Notes under the pieces: model-generated
The model's input: only the letters and a program-made list of their open reading frames with translations
Told to the model about the DNA's origin: nothing
The model's database searches: none
Assembly: GCA_022072455.1 (NCBI GenBank)
Contig: JAJVHY010000034.1
Span: 1 to 36,136 of the forward strand
DNA length: 36,136 nt
Source of the DNA: Verrucomicrobiia bacterium
GTDB lineage: Bacteria; Verrucomicrobiota; Verrucomicrobiia; Palsa-1439
Reading direction: 5' to 3'
Position numbers and translations under genes: made by a program
Shown: one piece after another, positions 1 through 20,000 of the stretch
How the letters are laid out: each line of letters begins with the position of its first letter
How positions within the stretch are numbered: the first letter of the stretch is position 1

Positions 1-117
1 TCGCTTTCTTGGTGCTCAGACACCGTTGCTTGTTTAGGTTTGAGAGCGAGGAGCACTTCGTTTATGCTCCCCGCCATGCGCCGCTCAGTTTACTCCAACA
101 ACCGAGGGCTTAGATGA
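1..117 (+). CDS. Possible 3' end of an upstream small gene (partial)
   Basis: A reading frame enters from the window edge and ends at TGA 115-117, giving 38 residues that end in NNRGLR. The stop sits at the left edge of the first attC-like site, which is where cassette-borne genes usually end. No family is recognisable in so short a piece, and its codon use gives no strong coding signal. It could equally be noncoding. Confidence 0.25.
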   Translation, partial: SLSWCSDTVACLGLRARSTSFMLPAMRRSVYSNNRGLR

Positions 118-175
118 GTATCAATCCGCTGGAGGCAACGCGGCTTCGCCGCGTGCCTCAGCTTGAGCGATAGGC
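116..175. other. attC-like recombination site A
   Basis: The site has an imperfect palindrome at 128-144 and 148-162 with a TTC loop. Its left arm carries one unpaired G and one unpaired A, like the extrahelical bases of integron attC sites. The flanks read GAGTATC (116-122) and GATAGGC (169-175), so the ATC and GAT cores pair with each other but differ from the consensus AAC and GTT. The stretch CAATCCGCT (122-130) also occurs in site D. The next gene's ATG starts 3 nt after the right flank. No integron integrase lies in the window, so this is a structural call. Confidence 0.5.
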
Positions 176-177
176 GT

Positions 178-657
178 ATGAGTACGAAAGCTCCAGACAT
201 CAAGATTTCAGAGCTTGAGGGATTCGAGCAAGTTGCGTCCATTGTTGCAGGCCGTCCGCTCTACCATTTCAGTCGCGTCTATTCTTTCCGGTATCTCGGT
301 CGTCGAGAGGACGAGCTTGGTGATGCGTGTAGAGAGATTGAGCTTATCATGGAGGAGCTAGAGCCACCACGTGCGCAGATTGGTTTCCGGTTTCATCGAG
401 TTGCGGATGTTTCGTTCTATGGTTTTGGTCAGATTATGGGGCTGTACTTTCAGAGCATTCAGGAGCGAGGTTGGGAGCGGCTACGCTTCGAGGTCGGAGA
501 CTATGAGGATGGTCACATACATTTGTTTTGTCATCAGGTCTCTCTATTTGCCCCGGACGGGCGCGCCTATCAATCCGATGGAGCTATGATTTGTCAACTC
601 TGTCATTGTCATTGGTCATTGGGGTCAACTCTGGACACTGGACAGAATGCGGATTGA
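178..657 (+). CDS. Small orphan soluble protein with chimeric C-terminus
   Basis: This is a 159-residue protein without a signal peptide or membrane segment that I do not recognise. It is rich in acidic and aromatic residues, with a central stretch DVSFYGFGQIMGLYF. Size and composition would suit an immunity-like or orphan cassette protein, but that is a guess. ATG 178 is preferred. An in-frame TTG at 163 lies inside the attC-like site, and the same TTG-to-ATG spacing of 15 nt recurs at 2573/2588. The last 20 or so codons (from about 590) run through GTCATTG repeats and the left inverted repeat of the transposase unit. The natural C-terminus has therefore probably been replaced, and the gene may be truncated. 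Confidence 0.6.
   Translation: MSTKAPDIKISELEGFEQVASIVAGRPLYHFSRVYSFRYLGRREDELGDACREIELIMEELEPPRAQIGFRFHRVADVSFYGFGQIMGLYFQSIQERGWERLRFEVGDYEDGHIHLFCHQVSLFAPDGRAYQSDGAMICQLCHCHWSLGSTLDTGQNAD
615..646 (+). repeat. Left arm of RAYT inverted repeat
   Basis: This is identical to the reverse complement of 1625-1656 over 32 bases. Pairing stops on both sides, with a mismatch at 614/1657 and another at 647/1624. The arm lies inside the 3' end of the gene at 178-657, so its bases are translated there. Confidence 0.9.
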
Positions 658-689
658 CGCCGGGCCGTGGCCTCGGTAGGCTCGCGGAC

Positions 690-1646
690 ATGGCGCGACC
701 ATTGCGAGTCGAGTTCCCGAATGCGGCTTACCATGTGATGGCCCGCGGCAACGAACGCCGCGCCGTTTACCGCGACGACACGGATCGGCGCCGGTTCCTC
801 GAGACCCTGGGCGAGATGGTGGAGCGGTTTGGAGTGCGGTTGCACGCCTATTGTCTGATGCCGAATCATTATCACCTCTTGCTCGACACGCCGCAGGCGA
901 ATCTGAGTCAGGCGGTGGGCTGGTTGCAGGTGACGTACACGGTGCGGTTCAATCGGCGGCACCGACGGAGCGGCCATTTGTTTCAGGGGCGGTTCAAGGC
1001 GCAGTTGATCGAGGCCGATGAGTATGCGCAAGGCTTGGTGGAGTATGTGCATCTGAATCCGGTGCGCCCCCGGCAGAAAGCGGCGCGGCTCGACCCGGCG
1101 CGGGCGGGTGAATTAGACGACTATCGCTGGAGCAGTCATCGGGTGTACGCGGGATGGGAACGGAAGCCGGTCGGGTGGTTGTGCCGGGATTGGCTGCGGT
1201 ATTGGGGCGGGGTGCCGCGGGAAGCGCATCGGGAGTATCGCCGGTCGGTGGCGCGGTGGTTTGCGGGGGAAGTGGCGAATCCGTGGGCGGGGTTGGTGGG
1301 GGGGCTGGTGTTGGGCGGGGCGAAGTTGTTGGCCAAGGCGCAAGCGCAATTGGGGCGCCAGGCGCGCGCGGAGGAAACGCGGTGGCTGCGGCGGGAACAG
1401 GCCAGCGAGTTGCGGGAGCGTCTGGGAGAAGTGTTGGCGGTGGAAGGCGATGAACGGGTGAAGATTTGGGCGCGGGTGCGGTTGGGCGGGGAGCGCGGGG
1501 TGGTGGTGGCGCGGGAATTGGGTTATCAGGATGGCAGTGCGGTGGGACACGTGGTGCGGCGGTTGGAGCGCGCGAGTGGAAGGGATGCGGATCTCCAGCG
1601 CAAGCTGGCCCGCCTTCGGGAAAATCTGTCCAGTGTCCAGAGTTGA
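690..1646 (+). CDS. REP-associated tyrosine transposase (RAYT, Y1/IS200-like)
   Basis: This 318-residue single-strand DNA transposase of the HUH/Y1 superfamily should nick and join REP-like hairpins. The N-terminus MARPLRVEFPNAAYHV is typical of the family. The metal-binding HUH motif is H60-Y-H62 in MPNHYHLLL. Candidate nucleophile tyrosines are Y112 and Y119, just before HLNPVR. The C-terminal part (about 200-318) is Arg-rich and likely binds DNA. ATG 690 is chosen because family homology starts there, although the frame is open further upstream. The coding region is clearly more GC-rich and G-rich than the flanking cassette genes, in keeping with separate origin. The frame appears intact. 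Confidence 0.88.
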   Translation: MARPLRVEFPNAAYHVMARGNERRAVYRDDTDRRRFLETLGEMVERFGVRLHAYCLMPNHYHLLLDTPQANLSQAVGWLQVTYTVRFNRRHRRSGHLFQGRFKAQLIEADEYAQGLVEYVHLNPVRPRQKAARLDPARAGELDDYRWSSHRVYAGWERKPVGWLCRDWLRYWGGVPREAHREYRRSVARWFAGEVANPWAGLVGGLVLGGAKLLAKAQAQLGRQARAEETRWLRREQASELRERLGEVLAVEGDERVKIWARVRLGGERGVVVARELGYQDGSAVGHVVRRLERASGRDADLQRKLARLRENLSSVQS

Positions 1647-1656
1647 CCCCAATGAC
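1625..1656 (+). repeat. Right arm of RAYT inverted repeat
   Basis: This is the exact reverse complement of 615-646. It overlaps the last codons of the transposase (stop at 1644-1646). It is followed at 1657-1670 by a second GTTGACCCCAATGA, so the right side carries one and a half copies of the motif. Confidence 0.9.
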
Positions 1657-1665
1657 GTTGACCCC

Positions 1666-1734
1666 AATGATCGCGCCATCGGCCCGCAAGGCCCCGGCGA
1701 CTGGAGCGACCCGGCCACCATCATCGTGCCCTGA
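1666..1734 (+). pseudogene. Remnant C-terminus of an FN3-type protein
   Basis: Immediately right of the RAYT repeat a frame reads NDRAIGPQGPGDWSDPATII followed by VP and TGA (1732-1734). The pattern RAIGPQGPGDWSDPA is typical of the last strands of a fibronectin type III domain, as found at the ends of secreted proteins in this type of genome. No upstream part of such a protein exists here, since the frame to the left is transposase and repeat. A terminator-like hairpin follows at 1755-1797. I infer a gene end left behind after insertion or deletion at the RAYT unit. Confidence 0.5.
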
Positions 1735-1754
1735 GCCGGTAAGTTGATAATCCC

Positions 1755-1797
1755 GCAGGCCGTCCCGGCAAGTCCTGGGCGGCCTGTTGGTTTTGTT
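1755..1797 (+). terminator. Intrinsic terminator of the lost FN3 gene
   Basis: CAGGCCGTCCC (1756-1766) pairs with GGGCGGCCTG (1777-1786) with a single bulged T. The T-rich tract TTGGTTTTGTTG follows. It lies 20 bp after the stop of the FN3 remnant, which supports that remnant being a genuine gene end. Confidence 0.55.
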
Positions 1798-2156
1798 GAA
1801 CAACCCAGCCGCTGCTGGCGGCCGGGGAGAGCCGCCTCAAGGGGGTCAACGAGTGACAATTGACAAAATAACAGCGTGTGGAGTCAAGAGTTGACACAAA
1901 AGATGGGGCAAAGTGAATGCTGTCAAAAGTCAATCGTTGCCCCTCCCGAACGGCGGCACGGAGAGGAGGAGTGCCGGCAACGTGAACCGGCAACAGGGAA
2001 CCAGTCGGCGTGGAGAGTGGGGAGTTGACCCCGGTGACACGATTGACATATGCACGAGCGATTCCTATCGTACCGTCAGCGGACAGGGTTGGGAGCACTT
2101 TGTCAATCGCCTCTGACTTTGTCCCACTAATAATGTTCGGCGGAAGGAGAACAAAC
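1798..2156. other. Gene-free stretch with scattered RAYT-type motifs
   Basis: I see no convincing gene here. The stretch holds GGGGTCAAC (1842-1850) and GAGTTGACCCC (2022-2032), which match parts of the RAYT inverted repeat, plus a GAGTTGACAC variant near 1887-1896. A promoter-like sequence lies at 2043-2071 and a strong ribosome binding site AAGGAG just before 2157. Confidence 0.5.
2043..2071 (+). promoter_or_regulatory. Sigma-70-like promoter for the 2157 gene
   Basis: TTGACA (2043-2048), a 17-bp spacer and TATCGT (2066-2071) make a perfect -35 box and a 4 of 6 -10 box. It lies about 85 bp upstream of the first small membrane-protein gene. This is a pattern match only. Confidence 0.35.
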
Positions 2157-2576
2157 ATGATCTACTGGACTTGGTTCAATCTGCTGGGTGTCCTGCTCTC
2201 CGTCATTGCGGTGGTTGTATGCGTGTGGGCTTACCGGCGAAGCCGAAAGCTGGGATACATGCTCATCGCCGCCGGTGTGCTTTTCGGCGTGGTCACAATG
2301 GTTGCTTTCTCCGCAATCCACAAGGCGCGAGTGCGGGCTTGGTACGCCCAACATCAACTCGCCGAGGATGCCCACAAGGCATTCATGGAGGAGTCCAATG
2401 CAATCGCGAAGAAGTATTTTCCAGCTGGTAATCCCCCGACTGGTCCGTCCATTCACTTCCCGGTCGGCGCGGTTCTCGCATTAACTGGTCTGTGGTTGCT
2501 TGCACGAGCGGAGGGCAAGATACCGGCCGAACCAGACGCTGGAGGCCACGCGGCTGAGCCGCATGCCTCAGCTTGA
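2157..2576 (+). CDS. Small orphan membrane protein with hairpin-encoded tail
   Basis: This 139-residue protein is not recognised. Membrane segments are predicted at about 4-26, 31-53 and, more weakly, 104-120. Between them lies a charged helical stretch that probably faces one side of the membrane. ATG 2157 is chosen because AAGGAG stands 8 nt upstream; an in-frame start at 2010 would translate repeat DNA. The last 14 residues (EPDAGGHAAEPHASA) are encoded by attC-like site B. The frame reads GCC GAA C where a cassette site would be expected to read GCC TAA C, so a T-to-G change may have removed the original stop. The stop used overlaps the upstream TTG of the next gene. Confidence 0.65.
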   Translation: MIYWTWFNLLGVLLSVIAVVVCVWAYRRSRKLGYMLIAAGVLFGVVTMVAFSAIHKARVRAWYAQHQLAEDAHKAFMEESNAIAKKYFPAGNPPTGPSIHFPVGAVLALTGLWLLARAEGKIPAEPDAGGHAAEPHASA

Positions 2577-2585
2577 GCGAGACAG
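2526..2585. other. attC-like recombination site B
   Basis: The palindrome at 2538-2554 and 2558-2572 has a TGA loop and two unpaired bases (G and C) in its left arm. It matches site A at 39 of 43 positions including the shared TTGAGCGA. GCCGAAC (2526-2532) fits the core RYYYAAC in six of seven places, while the right flank GAGACAG is degenerate. The next ATG (2588) stands at the same distance as in site A. Confidence 0.5.
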
Positions 2586-2587
2586 AG

Positions 2588-3025
2588 ATGATGAATGCTG
2601 AGCACATTCTCCGGAGTCTGCGAACGTGGATGCATACAACGTTCGGATCAATCATGCTCTTCATCACCGCCTGCTGCTTGGGGGTTTTCGCTGCTCATCC
2701 GGCATTCGTGAGTCACGCGGGATTTCAAATGCTCCCGATCATTTGGTTGTTTTATGCGGGCATGAGTCTGATGATTCTGGTCGGCATCCCATTTGTGTTG
2801 CTCCAGCTCGCTTGTTTGTATTCGTTTCTTTTCACCGACCGGTCACGCTTACATCTTTTCTTTTTGGTATTACTGACCGAGTTTGTTCGGCTGTACCTCG
2901 TTCGTGCGTGCATGGGCCGGATTAGCCTGCCTATATATTTTGTCACTCTCGCGGCAGTATTGCATGTTTATTTTGGCGGAGTGTTGCTGGCGCGTTGGCT
3001 TGGAAGGATACTTCCAAGTGTCTAA
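2588..3025 (+). CDS. Small orphan polytopic membrane protein
   Basis: This 145-residue hydrophobic protein has about four membrane segments (around 18-38, 48-75, 85-105 and 113-135) and short charged loops. I do not recognise its family. ATG 2588 is chosen, and a second ATG follows directly. The TTG at 2573 lies in the hairpin site and is less likely. The stop codon TAA (3023-3025) lies inside GTCTAAC, a perfect match to the attC left core RYYYAAC. That is the usual way a cassette gene ends. It probably acts at the inner membrane, but its role is unknown. Confidence 0.62.
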   Translation: MMNAEHILRSLRTWMHTTFGSIMLFITACCLGVFAAHPAFVSHAGFQMLPIIWLFYAGMSLMILVGIPFVLLQLACLYSFLFTDRSRLHLFFLVLLTEFVRLYLVRACMGRISLPIYFVTLAAVLHVYFGGVLLARWLGRILPSV

Positions 3026-3090
3026 CAAGATCACTGGAGCTACCGGCTGGCCGCTGGCGCGGCCAGCCGTAGCGCACTTCCGACAGTAGC
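3020..3090. other. attC-like recombination site C
   Basis: GTCTAAC (3020-3026) matches the integron core RYYYAAC exactly, and AAG follows as in many attC sites. An imperfect palindrome pairs AGCTACCGGCTGGCCGC (3038-3054) with 3059-3075, with one unpaired C in the left arm and one mismatch. A clear right-hand GTTRRRY core is not visible, so the right half may be degenerate. Confidence 0.5.
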
Positions 3091-3102
3091 TGAAAGAGAG
3101 AC

Positions 3103-3552
3103 ATGACACAGGACGAAGATCATCTCAGGTTGCTCACCATATTCCACTACGTCGTCGCTGGACTGGCCGGCCTATTCGCATGCTTTCCGATTATTCATTT
3201 GGTTATCGGCTTGGTATTCATCCTTGCGCCACACAAGTTCGAGGGCAAGGGTGAGCCGCCGCCAGCGTGGTTCGGATGGCTGTTCGTGATTATTGCGAGT
3301 GTCTTCATCACGCTCGGATGGATATTTGCCGGTTTCGTTTTCGTTACGGCCCGCTTTCTCGCTAGGCGCAGGCGCTACATGTTCTGTCTAGTCATGGCTG
3401 GCGTGGAGTGTCTATTCATGCCATTCGGCACAGTGCTCGGAGTCTTCACCATCATCGTGCTGATGCGAGAGTCGGCGAAGCAGCTATTCACAGCTAACAA
3501 TCCGCTTCAGCCCACCGCTGTCCGCTCCGCGTCTCGCGGTGGCTCACCGTAG
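3103..3552 (+). CDS. Conserved small membrane protein with attC-encoded NPLQPTA tail
   Basis: This 149-residue protein starts MTQDEDHLRLLTIFHYVV, which I recognise as a recurring but uncharacterised family of small membrane proteins. Three to four membrane segments lie at about 14-38, 58-85 and 93-125, and the conserved stretch MPFGTVLGVFTIIVL is visible. A purine-rich AAAGAGAG precedes the ATG. The final residues NNPLQPTAVRSASRGGSP are encoded by the next attC-like site, because the protein frame passes the TAA in GCTAAC out of register. Tails of this NPLQPTA type are common in unrelated hypothetical proteins and fit read-through of attC DNA. Confidence 0.7.
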   Translation: MTQDEDHLRLLTIFHYVVAGLAGLFACFPIIHLVIGLVFILAPHKFEGKGEPPPAWFGWLFVIIASVFITLGWIFAGFVFVTARFLARRRRYMFCLVMAGVECLFMPFGTVLGVFTIIVLMRESAKQLFTANNPLQPTAVRSASRGGSP

Positions 3553-3561
3553 ACGTTTGGC
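3493..3561. other. attC-like recombination site D
   Basis: GCTAACAATCCGCTTCAGCC at the left and AGACGTTTGGC (3551-3561) at the right resemble classical attC ends; GTTTGGC fits GTTRRRY in six of seven places. AGCCCACCGC (3509-3518) pairs with GCGGTGGCT (3536-3544) with one unpaired C. The site lies between the NPLQPTA-tailed protein and the methyltransferase. This is the best overall match of the four sites. Confidence 0.55.
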
Positions 3562-3602
3562 CCTGACCGAATCTATTCACACCCGGAAGGCAACATTTCA
3601 CA

Positions 3603-4349
3603 ATGGACATCCCACGGATATTCAACATCACTGAAAGTGCTCACCGCATTCACAACCCGATCACACCCGAAAAGCTCGCCACTCTCGGCGCGGCGCTGCG
3701 TCTGGAATCGGGGGCCCGAGTGCTCGACCTCGGCAGCGGTTCGGGGGAGATGCTGTGCACCTGGGCCCGCGATCACGGCGTCAGCGGCACCGGCATCGAC
3801 CTGAGCCAGTTGTTCACCGAGCAAGCGAAACGCCGGGCGGAAGAACTCGGCGTCGCCGATCAAGTCAAGTTCATCCATGGCGATGCGGCCGGCTATGTTT
3901 CTGACGAGAAGTTCGATGTGGCAGCCTGTGTCGGTGCCACGTGGATTGGCGGGGGAGTCGCCGGCACGATCGAACTGCTGGCGCGGAGCCTGCGCACCGG
4001 AGGGATCATCCTCATCGGCGAGCCCTACTGGCGGCAGTTACCGCCGACGGAAACTGTTGCCAAGGGGTGTGAGGGCAGTTCAATCTCCGACTTTCTCAGG
4101 CTTCCAGAACTTCTCGCGTTTTTCGGCCGCCTTGGCTACGACGTCGTGGAAATGGTTCTGGCTGACCAAGACGGCTGGGACAGATACGAGGCGGCCAAGT
4201 GGCTCACCATGCGCCGATGGCTTGAAGCCAATCCCGACGACGAGTTCGCGAAAGATGTTCGAACCAAATTGACCTCGGAACCCGAGCGCTACGCCGCTTA
4301 CACGCGTGAATACCTGGGCTGGGGTGTGTTCGCGCTGATGGCTCGGTGA
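3603..4349 (+). CDS. Class I SAM-dependent methyltransferase
   Basis: This 248-residue cytosolic protein has the Rossmann methyltransferase fold. Motif I is LDLGSGSGE near residue 40, the acidic residue after beta-2 is in GIDLS, and motif IV is near FDVAACVGATWIGG. The later part contains GEPYWRQLPP and a C-terminal helical cap. The substrate cannot be read from the sequence; small-molecule methylation is the usual role of this subgroup. GGAAGG lies about 12 nt before the ATG. It follows attC-like site D by 41 bp and is the last gene of the cassette-like string. The frame is intact. Confidence 0.8.
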   Translation: MDIPRIFNITESAHRIHNPITPEKLATLGAALRLESGARVLDLGSGSGEMLCTWARDHGVSGTGIDLSQLFTEQAKRRAEELGVADQVKFIHGDAAGYVSDEKFDVAACVGATWIGGGVAGTIELLARSLRTGGIILIGEPYWRQLPPTETVAKGCEGSSISDFLRLPELLAFFGRLGYDVVEMVLADQDGWDRYEAAKWLTMRRWLEANPDDEFAKDVRTKLTSEPERYAAYTREYLGWGVFALMAR

Positions 4350-4859
4350 TGAGGGGATTGCCAGGCCGGTTCGCGGAAGACAGGAGTCAGGAGTCAGAAG
4401 TCAGTACCGGCTATGCTGTTCTCCGCGTCCTCTGTGGTTGCCGCGGGAGAGAGGAGTGCGGCGTGTCGTCTAATTGCCGAGAACGGCGTTTCGTCCGACT
4501 CAGCTCCCGCTCCTGTGGTGAGAAATCCTTCGCCAGGTTCAGGATGACAACCGGGAACCGGGGAGAGTGGTCAGCGGGCATCCGCCTTCGCCTGGCCTTC
4601 GGCGGACACGGCTGTCAGCAGTCAGGTATCAGCGTACATCGGCGGCATCGGCGGTTCCTTCCATTCCCATCCGCCTGTCCCGTCGGCGTCCGGGACGGAC
4701 GCGGCTACACCGGAAGCGGCGGGCGTTTCGCTCAACTGCGCCAGCCCTACCGGTATCCGTTTCATCTGTGCGATCTGTGTCCATCTGTGGCCTAACGCAG
4801 TTCTCGCTTGCTTCGTGGTCTTGGCGCTCTCCCTGTTCAATCCCCTGCTCCGCCGCGGG
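4350..4859. repeat. Gene-free stretch of dispersed repeat fragments
   Basis: This 510-bp region carries no convincing gene, although one frame stays open for about 150 codons. It contains a short tandem repeat of the unit GAGTCAG (about 4383-4404). It also holds a stretch ending CCAGGTTCAGGATGACAAC (about 4530-4553) and TCTGTGCGATCTGTGTCCAT (about 4765-4785). Similar phrases recur as noncoding repeats in many environmental bacterial genomes. The arrangement suggests accumulated repeats between the cassette region and the starch operon. Confidence 0.45.
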
Positions 4860-13750: not shown

Positions 13751-14229
13751 GCGCCACCAACAAACAACCGAATCCGGGCAAAGGCGATTGGTGGTTGATC
13801 GTATTCTTCATCGGTTGCGTGGCGGTCTTGGTGGTGAGTGTGAGTTTCATCTGGCGGAAACTCGGCCAGCCCAAACCGGCGGCAACCCGACCTCCGCCGG
13901 CAGCCGCCCAGCCGGTCCCCCCAACGCCGCCGTTGGTCGTCACCCCACTGCACCAGCCGGCCCCGGCACCGCCGCTGGATGTGTCAGTGCGCGCGATTCT
14001 CAGCGACCCGGAAGCGTTCTTGGGAAAACTGATCCGCACGCCGGGGATTGTCCAGTTCCACGACACCAAAAAGGAGACATTCGATCTCCAGCAAGGCAAC
14101 TATGTTTTGCCGGTGAAATATCAGGGGCTGACCATCACCAGCCGGCAAGTGATGATCACCGGCATCTTGCGGCGGGATGAAAGTTTGAACACTCCCACCC
14201 TTGCCGCCCAGCAGATCGAGCCCCAGTAA
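13747..14229 (+). CDS. Membrane-anchored protein with proline-rich linker and small periplasmic domain
   Basis: This 160-residue protein has one membrane segment (about 15-37) and a Pro/Ala-rich linker (about 43-80). A C-terminal domain of about 75 residues follows, with the look of a small beta-barrel: FLGKLIRTPGIVQF, then TFDLQQGNYVLPVKY and ITSRQVMITGIL. An OB-like fold is a guess. The start ATG overlaps the stop of the OmpA-fusion gene (ATGA), so the two proteins are translationally coupled and probably work together in the envelope. The stop codon TAA overlaps the T-tract side of the converging pilin terminator. Confidence 0.72.
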   Translation: MSATNKQPNPGKGDWWLIVFFIGCVAVLVVSVSFIWRKLGQPKPAATRPPPAAAQPVPPTPPLVVTPLHQPAPAPPLDVSVRAILSDPEAFLGKLIRTPGIVQFHDTKKETFDLQQGNYVLPVKYQGLTITSRQVMITGILRRDESLNTPTLAAQQIEPQ

Positions 14230-14267
14230 AAAGCAGAACCCCCGCTCCGGGTGGAGCGAGGGTTCTG
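14228..14267 (-). terminator. Intrinsic terminator of pilin copy 1
   Basis: CAGAACCCCCGCTCC (14234-14248) pairs with 14253-14267 with one mismatch and a 4-nt loop. Read on the minus strand, five T residues follow. It lies 51 bp downstream of the pilin stop. An almost identical copy lies at 15000-15039. Confidence 0.8.
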
Positions 14268-14318
14268 AACTTACGTCTGAGCTGGGGTTAACTTAACCCA
14301 GCCGATTCGACTCTCGAA

Positions 14319-14705
14319 TCAATACGTGCCCCATTCGATGCCGACGCCGTCAAGCGCTGACTTCGTGGAGGTCGAGATCGCAACGTTGTTGCTCTCGGCG
14401 AGCGTTGTGGAGATCACGAACGCGTTATTCACCGCGTCAGCCGACGGCAGACCGCCTTTGACATACGTGGCCACTTCCGCCAAGACGATGGTGTCACCAA
14501 CTTTCATCTTCTTCTCGATCGCCCACTGATCAATGGCCGAGTCAATCTGACGGGCATCATTGAGGCTGCGGCGGCCTTGGGACTGCTTACGAGCTTTCAC
14601 GAAGCCCGGGATCGCGAGCGCGGCCAACAGACCGATGATGGCAACGACGATCATGATTTCAACGAGCGTGAACGCGGCTTTGTTACTGCGGATCTTACTG
14701 ATCAT
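14319..14705 (-). CDS. Type IV pilin/type II secretion pseudopilin-like protein, copy 1
   Basis: This 128-residue protein has a class III signal peptide. A short basic leader (MISKIRSNKAA) is followed by FTLVEIMIVVAIIGLLAALA, with Glu5 of the mature protein present and Ala instead of Gly at -1. The C-terminal part is a small globular domain whose DARQIDSAIDQWAIEKK segment is typical of the PulG-like subgroup. It should be processed by a prepilin peptidase and assembled into a pilus or pseudopilus. GGGAG stands 7 nt before the ATG. It ends SALDGVGIEWGTY where copy 2 ends SALANVGIEWGVY; otherwise the two proteins are identical. No other pilus genes lie nearby. Confidence 0.88.
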   Translation of the reverse strand: MISKIRSNKAAFTLVEIMIVVAIIGLLAALAIPGFVKARKQSQGRRSLNDARQIDSAIDQWAIEKKMKVGDTIVLAEVATYVKGGLPSADAVNNAFVISTTLAESNNVAISTSTKSALDGVGIEWGTY

Positions 14706-14759
14706 GTTTCTACTCCCTTTATTATGGTTTTGTTTGGTTCAACTACGCCAAACCTCTTT

Positions 14760-14775
14760 AGCAGTGGGTATGCCA
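14760..14775 (-). promoter_or_regulatory. Sigma-54-like -24/-12 promoter of pilin copy 1
   Basis: On the minus strand this reads TGGCATACCCACTGCT. The TGGCA and TGCT elements are spaced exactly as in RpoN promoters (TGGCAC-N5-TTGCW), with GG and GC 10 bp apart. It lies 54 bp upstream of the start codon. Pilin genes are often RpoN-dependent. Confidence 0.6.
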
Positions 14776-14999
14776 CAGCCGAAATCCGGCCATTTCACCC
14801 TGATTTGCCTCCGAATATCTCATTCCTGTGTGGCCAAGCTGATAACCCGTTCATTCTTGCGACAAACAAAATCGAGCAACGCCCGAAACCGGAACGAGTC
14901 AAGATGCTTCATCACGGTTGAATGGGAGGGCGAACCTCCCGGCGAGCCACGGCTCAGCAGGAGCTTCGCACTCCCGCAACCCTTCGATTGCAACACACG
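14776..14999. repeat. Spacer between pilin copies with a double-hairpin repeat
   Basis: No gene is seen. At 14924-14940 GGGAGG and CCTCCC form a hairpin with a GCGAA loop, and GAGCC/GGCTC (about 14944-14955) form a second. The phrase GGCGAACCTCCCGGCGAGCC is a dispersed element I have seen as an intergenic repeat in related genomes. The start of the stretch may hold upstream activator sites for the pilin promoter, but none can be named. Confidence 0.4.
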
Positions 15000-15039
15000 A
15001 AAAAGCAGAACCCCCGCTCCGGGTGGAGCGAGGGTTCTG
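15000..15039 (-). terminator. Intrinsic terminator of pilin copy 2
   Basis: The stem 15006-15020 with 15025-15039 is the same as in copy 1, followed on the minus strand by five T residues. It separates copy 2 transcription from copy 1. Confidence 0.8.
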
Positions 15040-15091
15040 AATTTACGTCAGAGCTGGATCCGAACTTAACCCAGCTTGTTCGCCGAATGGA

Positions 15092-15478
15092 TCAATACAC
15101 GCCCCATTCGATGCCGACATTAGCCAACGCTGACTTCGTGGAGGTCGAGATCGCAACGTTGTTGCTCTCGGCGAGCGTTGTGGAGATCACGAACGCGTTA
15201 TTCACCGCGTCAGCCGACGGCAGACCACCTTTGACATACGTGGCCACTTCCGCCAAGACGATGGTGTCACCAACTTTCATCTTCTTCTCGATCGCCCACT
15301 GATCAATGGCCGAGTCAATCTGACGGGCATCATTGAGGCTGCGGCGGCCTTGGGACTGCTTACGAGCTTTCACGAAGCCCGGGATCGCGAGCGCGGCCAA
15401 CAGACCGATGATGGCAACGACGATCATGATTTCAACGAGCGTGAACGCGGCTTTGTTACTACGGATCTTACTGATCAT
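15092..15478 (-). CDS. Type IV pilin/pseudopilin-like protein, copy 2
   Basis: This 128-residue protein is identical to copy 1 over its first 115 residues and differs only in the last 13. It has the same leader, FTLVE cleavage region, hydrophobic spine helix and globular domain. ATG 15478 is chosen because it matches copy 1 and has GGGAG 7 nt upstream; the frame stays open further upstream. With its own promoter and terminator it is an independent transcription unit. The two could be interchangeable subunits or a major/minor pair with different C-terminal faces. Confidence 0.88.
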   Translation of the reverse strand: MISKIRSNKAAFTLVEIMIVVAIIGLLAALAIPGFVKARKQSQGRRSLNDARQIDSAIDQWAIEKKMKVGDTIVLAEVATYVKGGLPSADAVNNAFVISTTLAESNNVAISTSTKSALANVGIEWGVY

Positions 15479-15531
15479 GTTTCTACTCCCTTTATTATGG
15501 TTTATTTGGCTCAACTACGTCGAACCTGTTT

Positions 15532-15547
15532 AGCAGCGGGTATGCCA
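15532..15547 (-). promoter_or_regulatory. Sigma-54-like -24/-12 promoter of pilin copy 2
   Basis: On the minus strand this reads TGGCATACCCGCTGCT, with the same -24/-12 spacing and position (54 bp before the ATG) as copy 1. Sequence upstream of it is unrelated to that of copy 1. Confidence 0.6.
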
Positions 15548-15712
15548 GCCACGGTTTCCGCCGTTTTACCCCCCAATTGCCCCCAAAAATCTCAAAACTG
15601 CGCCATCCATCGCAAAAACATCGTTCATTCTTGCGACGAACAGAAATGATCAGGCCGGTTCTGCTCCAAATTGTGATTGATTGTCGCGCCTTCCCCCGTA
15701 GCATGCCGGCCC

Positions 15713-19086: not shown

Positions 19087-19994
19087 CCCTCGCCGGGCAC
19101 GCGCTTCGCGCCGAACGGCCACCACCACTTCTTCTTCGGCGCCGGCGCTGGGGGGGGCGGTGGCGGTTCGAGTTCTTCGTCGGTCATCAGACGCTCCTGC
19201 CGGGGGTACGTTTGTTCGCCGCCGACCACAACAATGGAATTCTCGCGCACCTGCAATTCCGGCAACGAAGTATAATCGGAATACGCTGCCCGCGTCGCCA
19301 GGCGCGCGGCGGGATCAATTCGCACATACCCATACGAGCGCGGACCGTTTTGGAACAACACATGCAAGTGAGCCTCCTGGTCAATCCGGCCTTGAAGTCC
19401 AGTTGGCGCGATACAGGGACCAAGCGGCACCAAACTGAAGATCGTCTTCGACGGTTCACCGCGAACGCTGACATAGAGTTGGTCCCTGTCGCCTTCCCGG
19501 CGGGCAATCAAAGTGTAAATCCGGTATTCCTCCGGCACCCCTTCCACCACCGGTAAGCCGACTGTCTGAGTCCAGAGTTCGCGACCGTTGATAATCGCCA
19601 AACTGGCTGGCGTGGAGCTCGCGACCACCCCGCCGCTGGTAACTGAGACTTGAACCCGGTAGTTTCCGCGCCGCCGCAGATCGTAGTACGGCAAAATGTC
19701 CACAACCCGGGAAACCGTTTGCCCCGCCGGGATGAGGACGGACTCGCCTGCCACAAACTCAGCCGTAACCGATACATTCTGATTATTTTCGTCGGTGACA
19801 ACAAATCGGAGCCAGGAAGTTGCGTCGGAATTCTCGAGCTGGATTGCCCGCCCGGAAAAATTGCGAATTGTGACTGTGACCGGGATGCTTTCATAGACGA
19901 GAAATGTGTCTTTCGCAGCACGGAGTTGGACACTGATTTGCGCGGAGGCAATGCCCGCGCTCACAAGAAGTAAAAGCAGAGCACGCATGCGCAA
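19083..19994 (-). CDS. Secreted hypothetical protein
   Basis: This 303-residue protein has a signal peptide (MRMRALLLLLVSAGIASA-QIS). Residues about 20-130 look like an immunoglobulin-like beta-sandwich (FLVYESIPVTVTIRN and YRVQVSVTSGG). A second beta-rich part follows. The tail is proline-rich and then strongly basic/aromatic (KKKWWWPFGAKR), which could touch membrane or cell wall. The family is not recognised. It lies 6 bp downstream of the M14 peptidase gene in the rho operon. An alternative start two codons in is equally possible. Confidence 0.65.
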   Translation of the reverse strand: MRMRALLLLLVSAGIASAQISVQLRAAKDTFLVYESIPVTVTIRNFSGRAIQLENSDATSWLRFVVTDENNQNVSVTAEFVAGESVLIPAGQTVSRVVDILPYYDLRRRGNYRVQVSVTSGGVVASSTPASLAIINGRELWTQTVGLPVVEGVPEEYRIYTLIARREGDRDQLYVSVRGEPSKTIFSLVPLGPCIAPTGLQGRIDQEAHLHVLFQNGPRSYGYVRIDPAARLATRAAYSDYTSLPELQVRENSIVVVGGEQTYPRQERLMTDEELEPPPPPPAPAPKKKWWWPFGAKRVPGEG

Positions 19995-20000
19995 ACCGTA

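Follow-up and report, generated by a model that had tools for sequence, protein, structure and literature searches.

Are the small genes at one edge of a Verrucomicrobiia contig cassettes of an integron, and what is the GAT/ATC core that part of their hairpins carry in place of the canonical GTT/AAC? The stretch analyzed here (the window, 36,136 nucleotides) is the entire contig C30 (JAJVHY010000034.1) of assembly GCA_022072455.1 (genome G000, 4.82 Mb, 36 contigs), and the cassette cluster therefore lies at a contig edge. An original prediction had placed four imperfect palindromes in the first 4,349 positions, each directly before a small gene, and had proposed a possible integron-type cassette array. 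We conclude that this is a genuine array of a kind already known and that its GAT/ATC core is a new variant. Taken as a whole, the explanation that we consider highly probable is that the first 3.6 kb of the window belong to a chromosomal integron that a transposase element subsequently disrupted, and that GAT/ATC is a second crossover core, used by an integrase that would require the outer G but not the middle base.

Rfam yielded no match, either in the whole window at gathering scores or in positions 1-4500 at a relaxed threshold, and we therefore built our own covariance model. Sites for recombination (attC) were searched for in 20 stretches around the integron integrases of relatives from the same family or class, with a descriptor and then a position weight matrix (PWM). 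Twenty attC from these integrase-linked stretches, with the sites of the own genome left out, formed the model R1, whose E-values are rough owing to a short calibration. The hairpins of this training set covary (62 two-sided-change cells compared to 26 ± 4 after shuffling, 0 of 500 as high), and R1 returned 105 matches in 16 of the 20 stretches. In the window it recognized three of the four palindromes (A, B and D). The fourth-best match reached only E 0.094, and the remaining palindrome, C, is absent from the 41 matches listed. The PWM trained on relatives scored D and A above the maximum of 29.6 found in 20 simulated Markov-1 windows; B, with a strong left half only, totaled 20.0 and did not rise above noise (8 simulated matches scored 20 or more). 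A strict descriptor requiring AAC and GTT found zero sites in the window because the cores there are variant or damaged, and this failure led to the core variant. The features of the cluster are as follows, R'' denoting the left and R' the right core:

1 to 115, + strand: tail of the preceding cassette; bases 1-125 are the exact start (offset 2) of the reverse-complemented end of contig C12
116 to 175, + strand: attC A, R'' GAGTATC, R' GATAGGC, GAT/ATC type (R1 44.3 bits, E 1.1e-9; PWM 31.1)
178 to 564, + strand: cassette gene, extending into half-site E
565 to 584, + strand: half-site E, the left half of a fifth attC, R'' GCCTATC, followed by the transposase element
615 to 1656, + strand: Y1 transposase element of the type associated with repetitive extragenic palindromes (REP), transposase at 690-1646
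about 2097 to 2141, + strand: attI-like site with terminal core GTTCGGC (2135-2141)
2157 to 2576, + strand: cassette gene, reading into attC B
2526 to 2583, + strand: attC B, R'' GCCGAAC, R' G-AGAC (R1 31.5 bits, E 2.7e-6)
2588 to 3025, + strand: orphan cassette gene, stop codon within R'' of site C
3020 to 3091, + strand: site C, R'' GTCTAAC, R' AGTAGCT; strong hairpin, degenerate
3103 to 3552, + strand: cassette gene with homologs in 9 of 86 relatives
3492 to 3561, + strand: attC D, R'' AGCTAAC, R' GTTTGGC (R1 30.2 bits, E 5.7e-6; PWM 33.7)
3603 to 4349, + strand: S-adenosylmethionine (SAM) methyltransferase, distal end of the cluster

The four palindromes thus lie where they had been predicted, and all attC of the window share one orientation. 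As attC-like sites, A, B and D held up and C did not, while half-site E and the attI-like site had been missed. The prediction had named the lack of an attC match at every one of the four sites as part of the grounds for dropping the array; three of the four match, and the integron-type array stands. Its assignment of hairpins to genes has to be reversed, as each hairpin belongs to the preceding gene. Folding of the bottom strands, which it had suggested as a check, gave a mixed picture: z-scores were low for A (-3.5) and C (-5.2), but not for B (-1.6) and D (-0.6), and since the fold of D is this weak, its standing as attC rests on its cores and the model, not on energy.

Across the own genome, R1 found at least 17 matches at E ≤ 1 (150 of 4501 candidates scored), and on stretches fetched from it (11 sources) 20 matches at E ≤ 0.05, plus one more on contig C31. 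Arrays are located where C31 starts and where C12 ends, and the other matches occur singly or in small groups on C14, C15, C19, C23, C35 and in the window. The lone sites are C14:102578-102644, C15:30719-30779 and C19:31957-32011, away from the arrays, and C15 has a weaker second site. For the 20 matches the hairpin is again favored, with 86% of cells paired compared to 70 ± 2% after shuffling, but two of five pairing measures (both-side changes and pair types) were equaled or surpassed in 137 and 421 of 500 shuffles. When folded, the bottom strands of four GAT-type sites gave bulged hairpins with z between -2.7 and -6.6. A MAFFT alignment of five own sites was too gapped for use.

The Y1/REP transposase in the window and the near-identity of A and B could suggest that the hairpins are REP-like palindromes spread by this enzyme and not recombination sites. 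A and B are indeed near-copies of a site at the C23 end (97.8% over 46 bp and 90.4% over 52 bp). However, in place of many dispersed copies, the A-type pattern (up to 3 mismatches, whole genome) has exactly three in 4.8 Mb, which share one orientation: two belong to the window, and the third lies beside an integrase gene (intI) at the C23 end; the reversed-pattern control gave 0. Moreover, a model made from intI-linked sites of other genomes recognizes A, B and D, and cassette ends pair across the genes. We therefore regard a REP origin as very improbable. Intrinsic terminators of small operons would likewise be G+C-rich hairpins at gene ends, but the bulged arms, the conserved cores, the lack of a T run after the stems in the sequence and the matches to the attC model make this reading extremely improbable. 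We have high confidence that the array consists of attC and cassettes.

The start of an integron cassette is expected to be reverse-complementary to its own R''. We compared 125 sites of 17 genomes (the own genome and 16 relatives), and 82 of 101 neighboring pairs were complementary at 7/7 bases between the R' of one site and the R'' of the site after it. In the window, R'' of half-site E is the exact reverse complement of R' of attC A (at 169), and R'' of attC B is complementary at 7/7 bases to the core at 2135. R' of attC B equals the GTTAGAC expected from R'' of site C minus two T, and R' of site C agrees at 5/7 bases with the GTTAGCT expected from R'' of attC D. The original prediction had noted that some cores are degenerate. 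C is degenerate and the right core of B damaged, but the GATAGGC of A is one side of the paired GAT/ATC variant. The right half of half-site E was not found; the left half ends short of the Y1 element.

We called cassettes by the four outer core bases only, leaving the triplet unscored, and 88 of 105 pairs qualified. GTT/AAC was found in 67 and GAT/ATC in 19 of these, the mixed combinations GTT/ATC and GAT/AAC in none, and two were misregistered (Fisher P-value = 1.8e-19); the counts are not all independent, with 38 (GTT/AAC) and 12 (GAT/ATC) core pairs being unique per locus. The 19 GAT/ATC cassettes derive from the own genome (7), G084 (7), G080 (2), G031 (2) and G026 (1). The two triplets of a single site are parts of different cassettes, and their combinations are mixed (n = 125: GTT/AAC 81, GAT/AAC 11, GTT/ATC 14, GAT/ATC 12, other 7); the 14 GTT/ATC cases include the three lone sites of C14, C15 and C19. 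Both halves of a core travel in one cassette, and inheritance therefore keeps the change matched and the bottom-strand stem of R'' and R' paired. The canonical AAC and GTT core is found at D, C23 and C35 and not at A, with GAT/ATC in its place in 8 of 13 neighboring pairs of the own genome and 11 of 88 pairs of relatives. All five sites on C12 read ATC...GAT, on C31 four of seven do so on each side, and in the window A and half-site E belong to this type. Since the array departs from the AAC/GTT core, which is a consensus and not the definition of an integron, we class it as a variant.

Signs of movement were found for these cassettes. One GAT cassette of 414 bp is identical in the C31 array and adjoining intI on C35. 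The identity starts exactly at GATATGC after unlike sequence and stops at GAGCGTT in both copies; the next core is GTTAGGC in one and GTTGGCC in the other, TT thus being common to both. Inside C31, a 439-bp cassette is present twice. Both copies stop precisely at ...GACG, after which one continues with TTGGGA and the other with ATAGAC. Both sets of ends agree with strand exchange directly after G, with either T or A next. Window positions 1-180 match the C12 end (locus L092) at 91% over 180 bp without gaps, with 125 identical bases and then 16 mismatches in 55, and the identical cassette tail carries two different attC bodies at these two places. Matched ends together with exact-end duplicates on other contigs of the genome mark the cassettes as discrete units.

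These data also bear on the proposal that the cluster is a dead remnant with a lost integrase, in which GAT arose from GTT by mutational decay. The decayed intI on C23, the damaged right cores of B and C, the truncation of E and the lack of intI in the window all fit such a history. Decay does not account for the pairing of GAT starts with ATC at the other end in 19/19 outer-matched cassettes, or for an identical GAT cassette with exact ends at two places. Further, GAT cassettes lie beside near-full-length intI frames without stops in G031, G080 and G084. We consider a dead remnant quite unlikely.

The absence of an integrase from the window was correctly predicted: no credible intI remains were found there (best tblastn E 0.026), and intI is located on other contigs. 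TIGR02249 matches C3:1-549 with 290.6 bits, above the cut-off of 265, placing an integron integrase in the genome, and C35:20162-20746 with 249.5 bits, just under this cut-off. The C35 and C3 parts overlap by 176 bp at 99.4%, as would be expected from two copies or from two strains. The C35 intI continues into an end that resembles the end of the window's transposase element (L017 19821-19873). The C23 integrase represents a lineage separate from C35/C3 and is 80% identical to the integrase of G008 over 110 residues. The region between this intI and its first cassette is resembled by the attI-like stretch of the window (score 56, 0 of 500 shuffles), which is the best of the segments tried, the next-best scoring 42. 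The C35 stretch is unlike the attI-like stretches of C23 and the window, and the window's candidate attI has no adjacent intI. With A, B and D on a contig of 36,136 bases, the window carries a cluster of attC sites lacking integrases (CALIN; at least two attC, no intI nearby), whose array is cut by the contig edge.

GAT cassettes occur in the own genome and in four of the 16 relatives with attC (G026, G031, G080, G084). These genomes fall into two groups of the integrase tree and not into one clade, and they cluster no better than shuffles (112 of 500 as low). One could imagine separate integrase lineages each with its own core, one moving GAT cassettes and another GTT cassettes, given that C35/C3 and C23 represent two integrase lineages in the own genome and that GAT cassettes form runs there. 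However, both core types are found within single arrays, and in L072, the largest mixed array, neighbors look independent (counts of 12, 6, 5 and 4; Fisher 0.68, low power). GAT also accompanies integrases of both tree groups. This division of labor appears rather doubtful to us.

We therefore return to a second crossover core and propose the following mechanism. Small genes, each followed by its own attC, would be collected by an IntI encoded elsewhere in the genome. In this integron and some of its relatives, one type of cassette starts with TTRRRY and ends with RYYYAAC (crossover G^TT), and the other starts with ATRRRY and ends with RYYYATC (crossover G^AT). The integrase would read the hairpin shape and the outer G, cut after this G and tolerate either middle base, and this tolerance would allow two core types to share one array. 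Judged from sequence, we have good confidence that the GAT/ATC core is functional and moderate confidence that one integrase uses both types; which integrase acts, and that GAT cassettes recombine at useful rates, we infer.

Several observations weigh against this proposal. Among the 101 neighboring pairs, 19 fall below 7/7 complementarity and 14 below 6/7; the imperfect pairs include the window pair that skips half-site E and two L072 pairs that contain an insertion sequence (IS). GAT cassettes of the own genome come in runs (5/5 sites on C12, four consecutive ones on C31), a pattern that falls short of free mixing. At the lone sites on C14, C15 and C19, the left triplet is ATC and the right one GTT; no clear cassette start was found for them, and they are perhaps single cassettes inserted at secondary sites. 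The C23 intI is decayed, with two TIGR02249 pieces, one containing stops, and an intact intI of the own genome is not proven because the gene is split over C35 and C3 and has a transposase-like end on C35. In a wider survey of 80 integrase loci from other genomes (named records, many phyla), R1 found 50 attC in 20 loci, with GTT in 48 and AAC in 49 and GAT and ATC in none; three odd rows comprise two cut or shifted sites and one GTA. The survey's neighboring pairs were complementary at 7/7 bases in 19 of 30 cases, and a PWM blind to the middle base found 32 sites in the same 80 loci, none of them GAT. As no GAT was found among these attC, the GAT core is not general. Published work, cited throughout from excerpts, attributes to AAC the microhomology needed for strand transfer and reports that a triplet mismatch in attI1 nearly abolished binding (PMC4792948). 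Finally, our evidence consists of sequence, and recombination itself was not observed.

A bolder version holds that G^TT and G^AT serve integrons of this group as interchangeable crossover alphabets within one array. The integrase would then not read the middle triplet base, nor would this base be required as microhomology; it would instead be kept by pairing in the folded hairpin and spread as a heritable trait of the cassette. The runs of GAT cassettes in the own genome lower the odds of this version, and we lean towards it only slightly.

Canonical attC sites are described as RYYYAAC...GTTRRRY (PMC2727003, PMC7370490, PMC12901181), with conservation confined to AAC and GTT (PMC2727003). The sites reported here share the hairpin with extra bases in the L'' arm, the near-fixed spacing and the crossover G, but the middle triplet base is altered on the left and on the right in a compensatory manner. 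For attI, the AAC crossover triplet is given as universal and as important for binding, its role there being named as open (PMC4792948). In the excerpts cited, the second core base is lax and GAT cleavable, especially at secondary sites (PMC10127599), and the secondary sites of IntI1 follow GNT/GWTMW (PMC4618277, PMC10127599). These accept GAT and are cut between G and A, as we propose for our cassettes; they are stray targets, whereas in our arrays whole cassettes inherit GAT/ATC as their core at both ends. For Treponema denticola, three attC representatives without an identifiable AAC were omitted from the authors' alignment, and the excerpt mentions no matched GAT partner (PMC3607928). Verrucomicrobiota are listed among integron-bearing groups (PMC8618304). 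Natural GAT/ATC attC arrays or cassettes were not found in the excerpts of the literature searched (open-licence PMC papers only). As in sedentary chromosomal integrons and CALINs, small genes are each followed by an attC in one orientation in the window, with paired ends, intI elsewhere and duplicated cassettes; the many ATC...GAT cores and the splitting of the array over contigs and by a transposase element differ from these.

Natural core changes at both ends, some next to unchanged cassettes, amount to a ready-made mutational experiment, and GAT/ATC cassettes could separate binding, cleavage position and strand-transfer microhomology. Our data also suggest that tools, primers and surveys based on AAC/GTT might undercount or miss such cassettes.

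With respect to the genes of the window, 178-564 had no Pfam or NCBIfam match at E 0.01, and 2588-3025 had matches in the own genome only (87 genomes searched). We read the products of 2157-2576, with Pfam matches below cut-offs only, and of 3103-3552 as small membrane-like proteins. Homologs of 3103-3552 showed no above-threshold attC in the three loci checked; the G020 homolog (L200 about 1890-1925) terminates in AACAATCCGGGTCATCT, which resembles a left half-attC, with no right half found. The methyltransferase had been counted as the last cassette, but no attC was found downstream of it, and because no counterpart to the GTTTGGC of attC D was found, it is not proven to be a cassette. The Y1 element is flanked by 32-bp inverted repeats (615-646 and 1625-1656), and its transposase matches PF01797 above the cut-off and NF047646 with 66 bits, under the cut-off of 80.

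In the flanks, the neighbor gene of 1185 residues was found in 3 of 12 relatives and not in G001, the sole genome of the same genus. In G004 an amylase-like gene (33%) lies next to it, and the PWM at score 24 detected no attC across 18 kb; we rejected this locus as an empty site because it is too distant.

In G084, an IS1182-family element (NF033551, 308 bits for the L072 copy) lies exactly in the right core of attC. Copies are found at L072 9573-11171 and 13118-14716 (- strand) and from about 12320 to the end of L183. In 3/3 places, ...CGTT is followed by the IS, with ends GAGACTGTCGAAAAACCC and GGGTTTCCCGACAGTCTC, and then by GTT again, the third place being two bases from a contig end. The element looks like an attC-targeting IS that would duplicate GTT. 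The C23 attC of the own genome (L019 about 19876-20000, contig end) runs into a similar IS left end.

Lastly, the window contains two direct repeats, one of 647 bp (14228-14871 and 15000-15645, 89% identical) and one of 175 bp near the other contig end (34599-34771 and 35862-36034, 81% identical).

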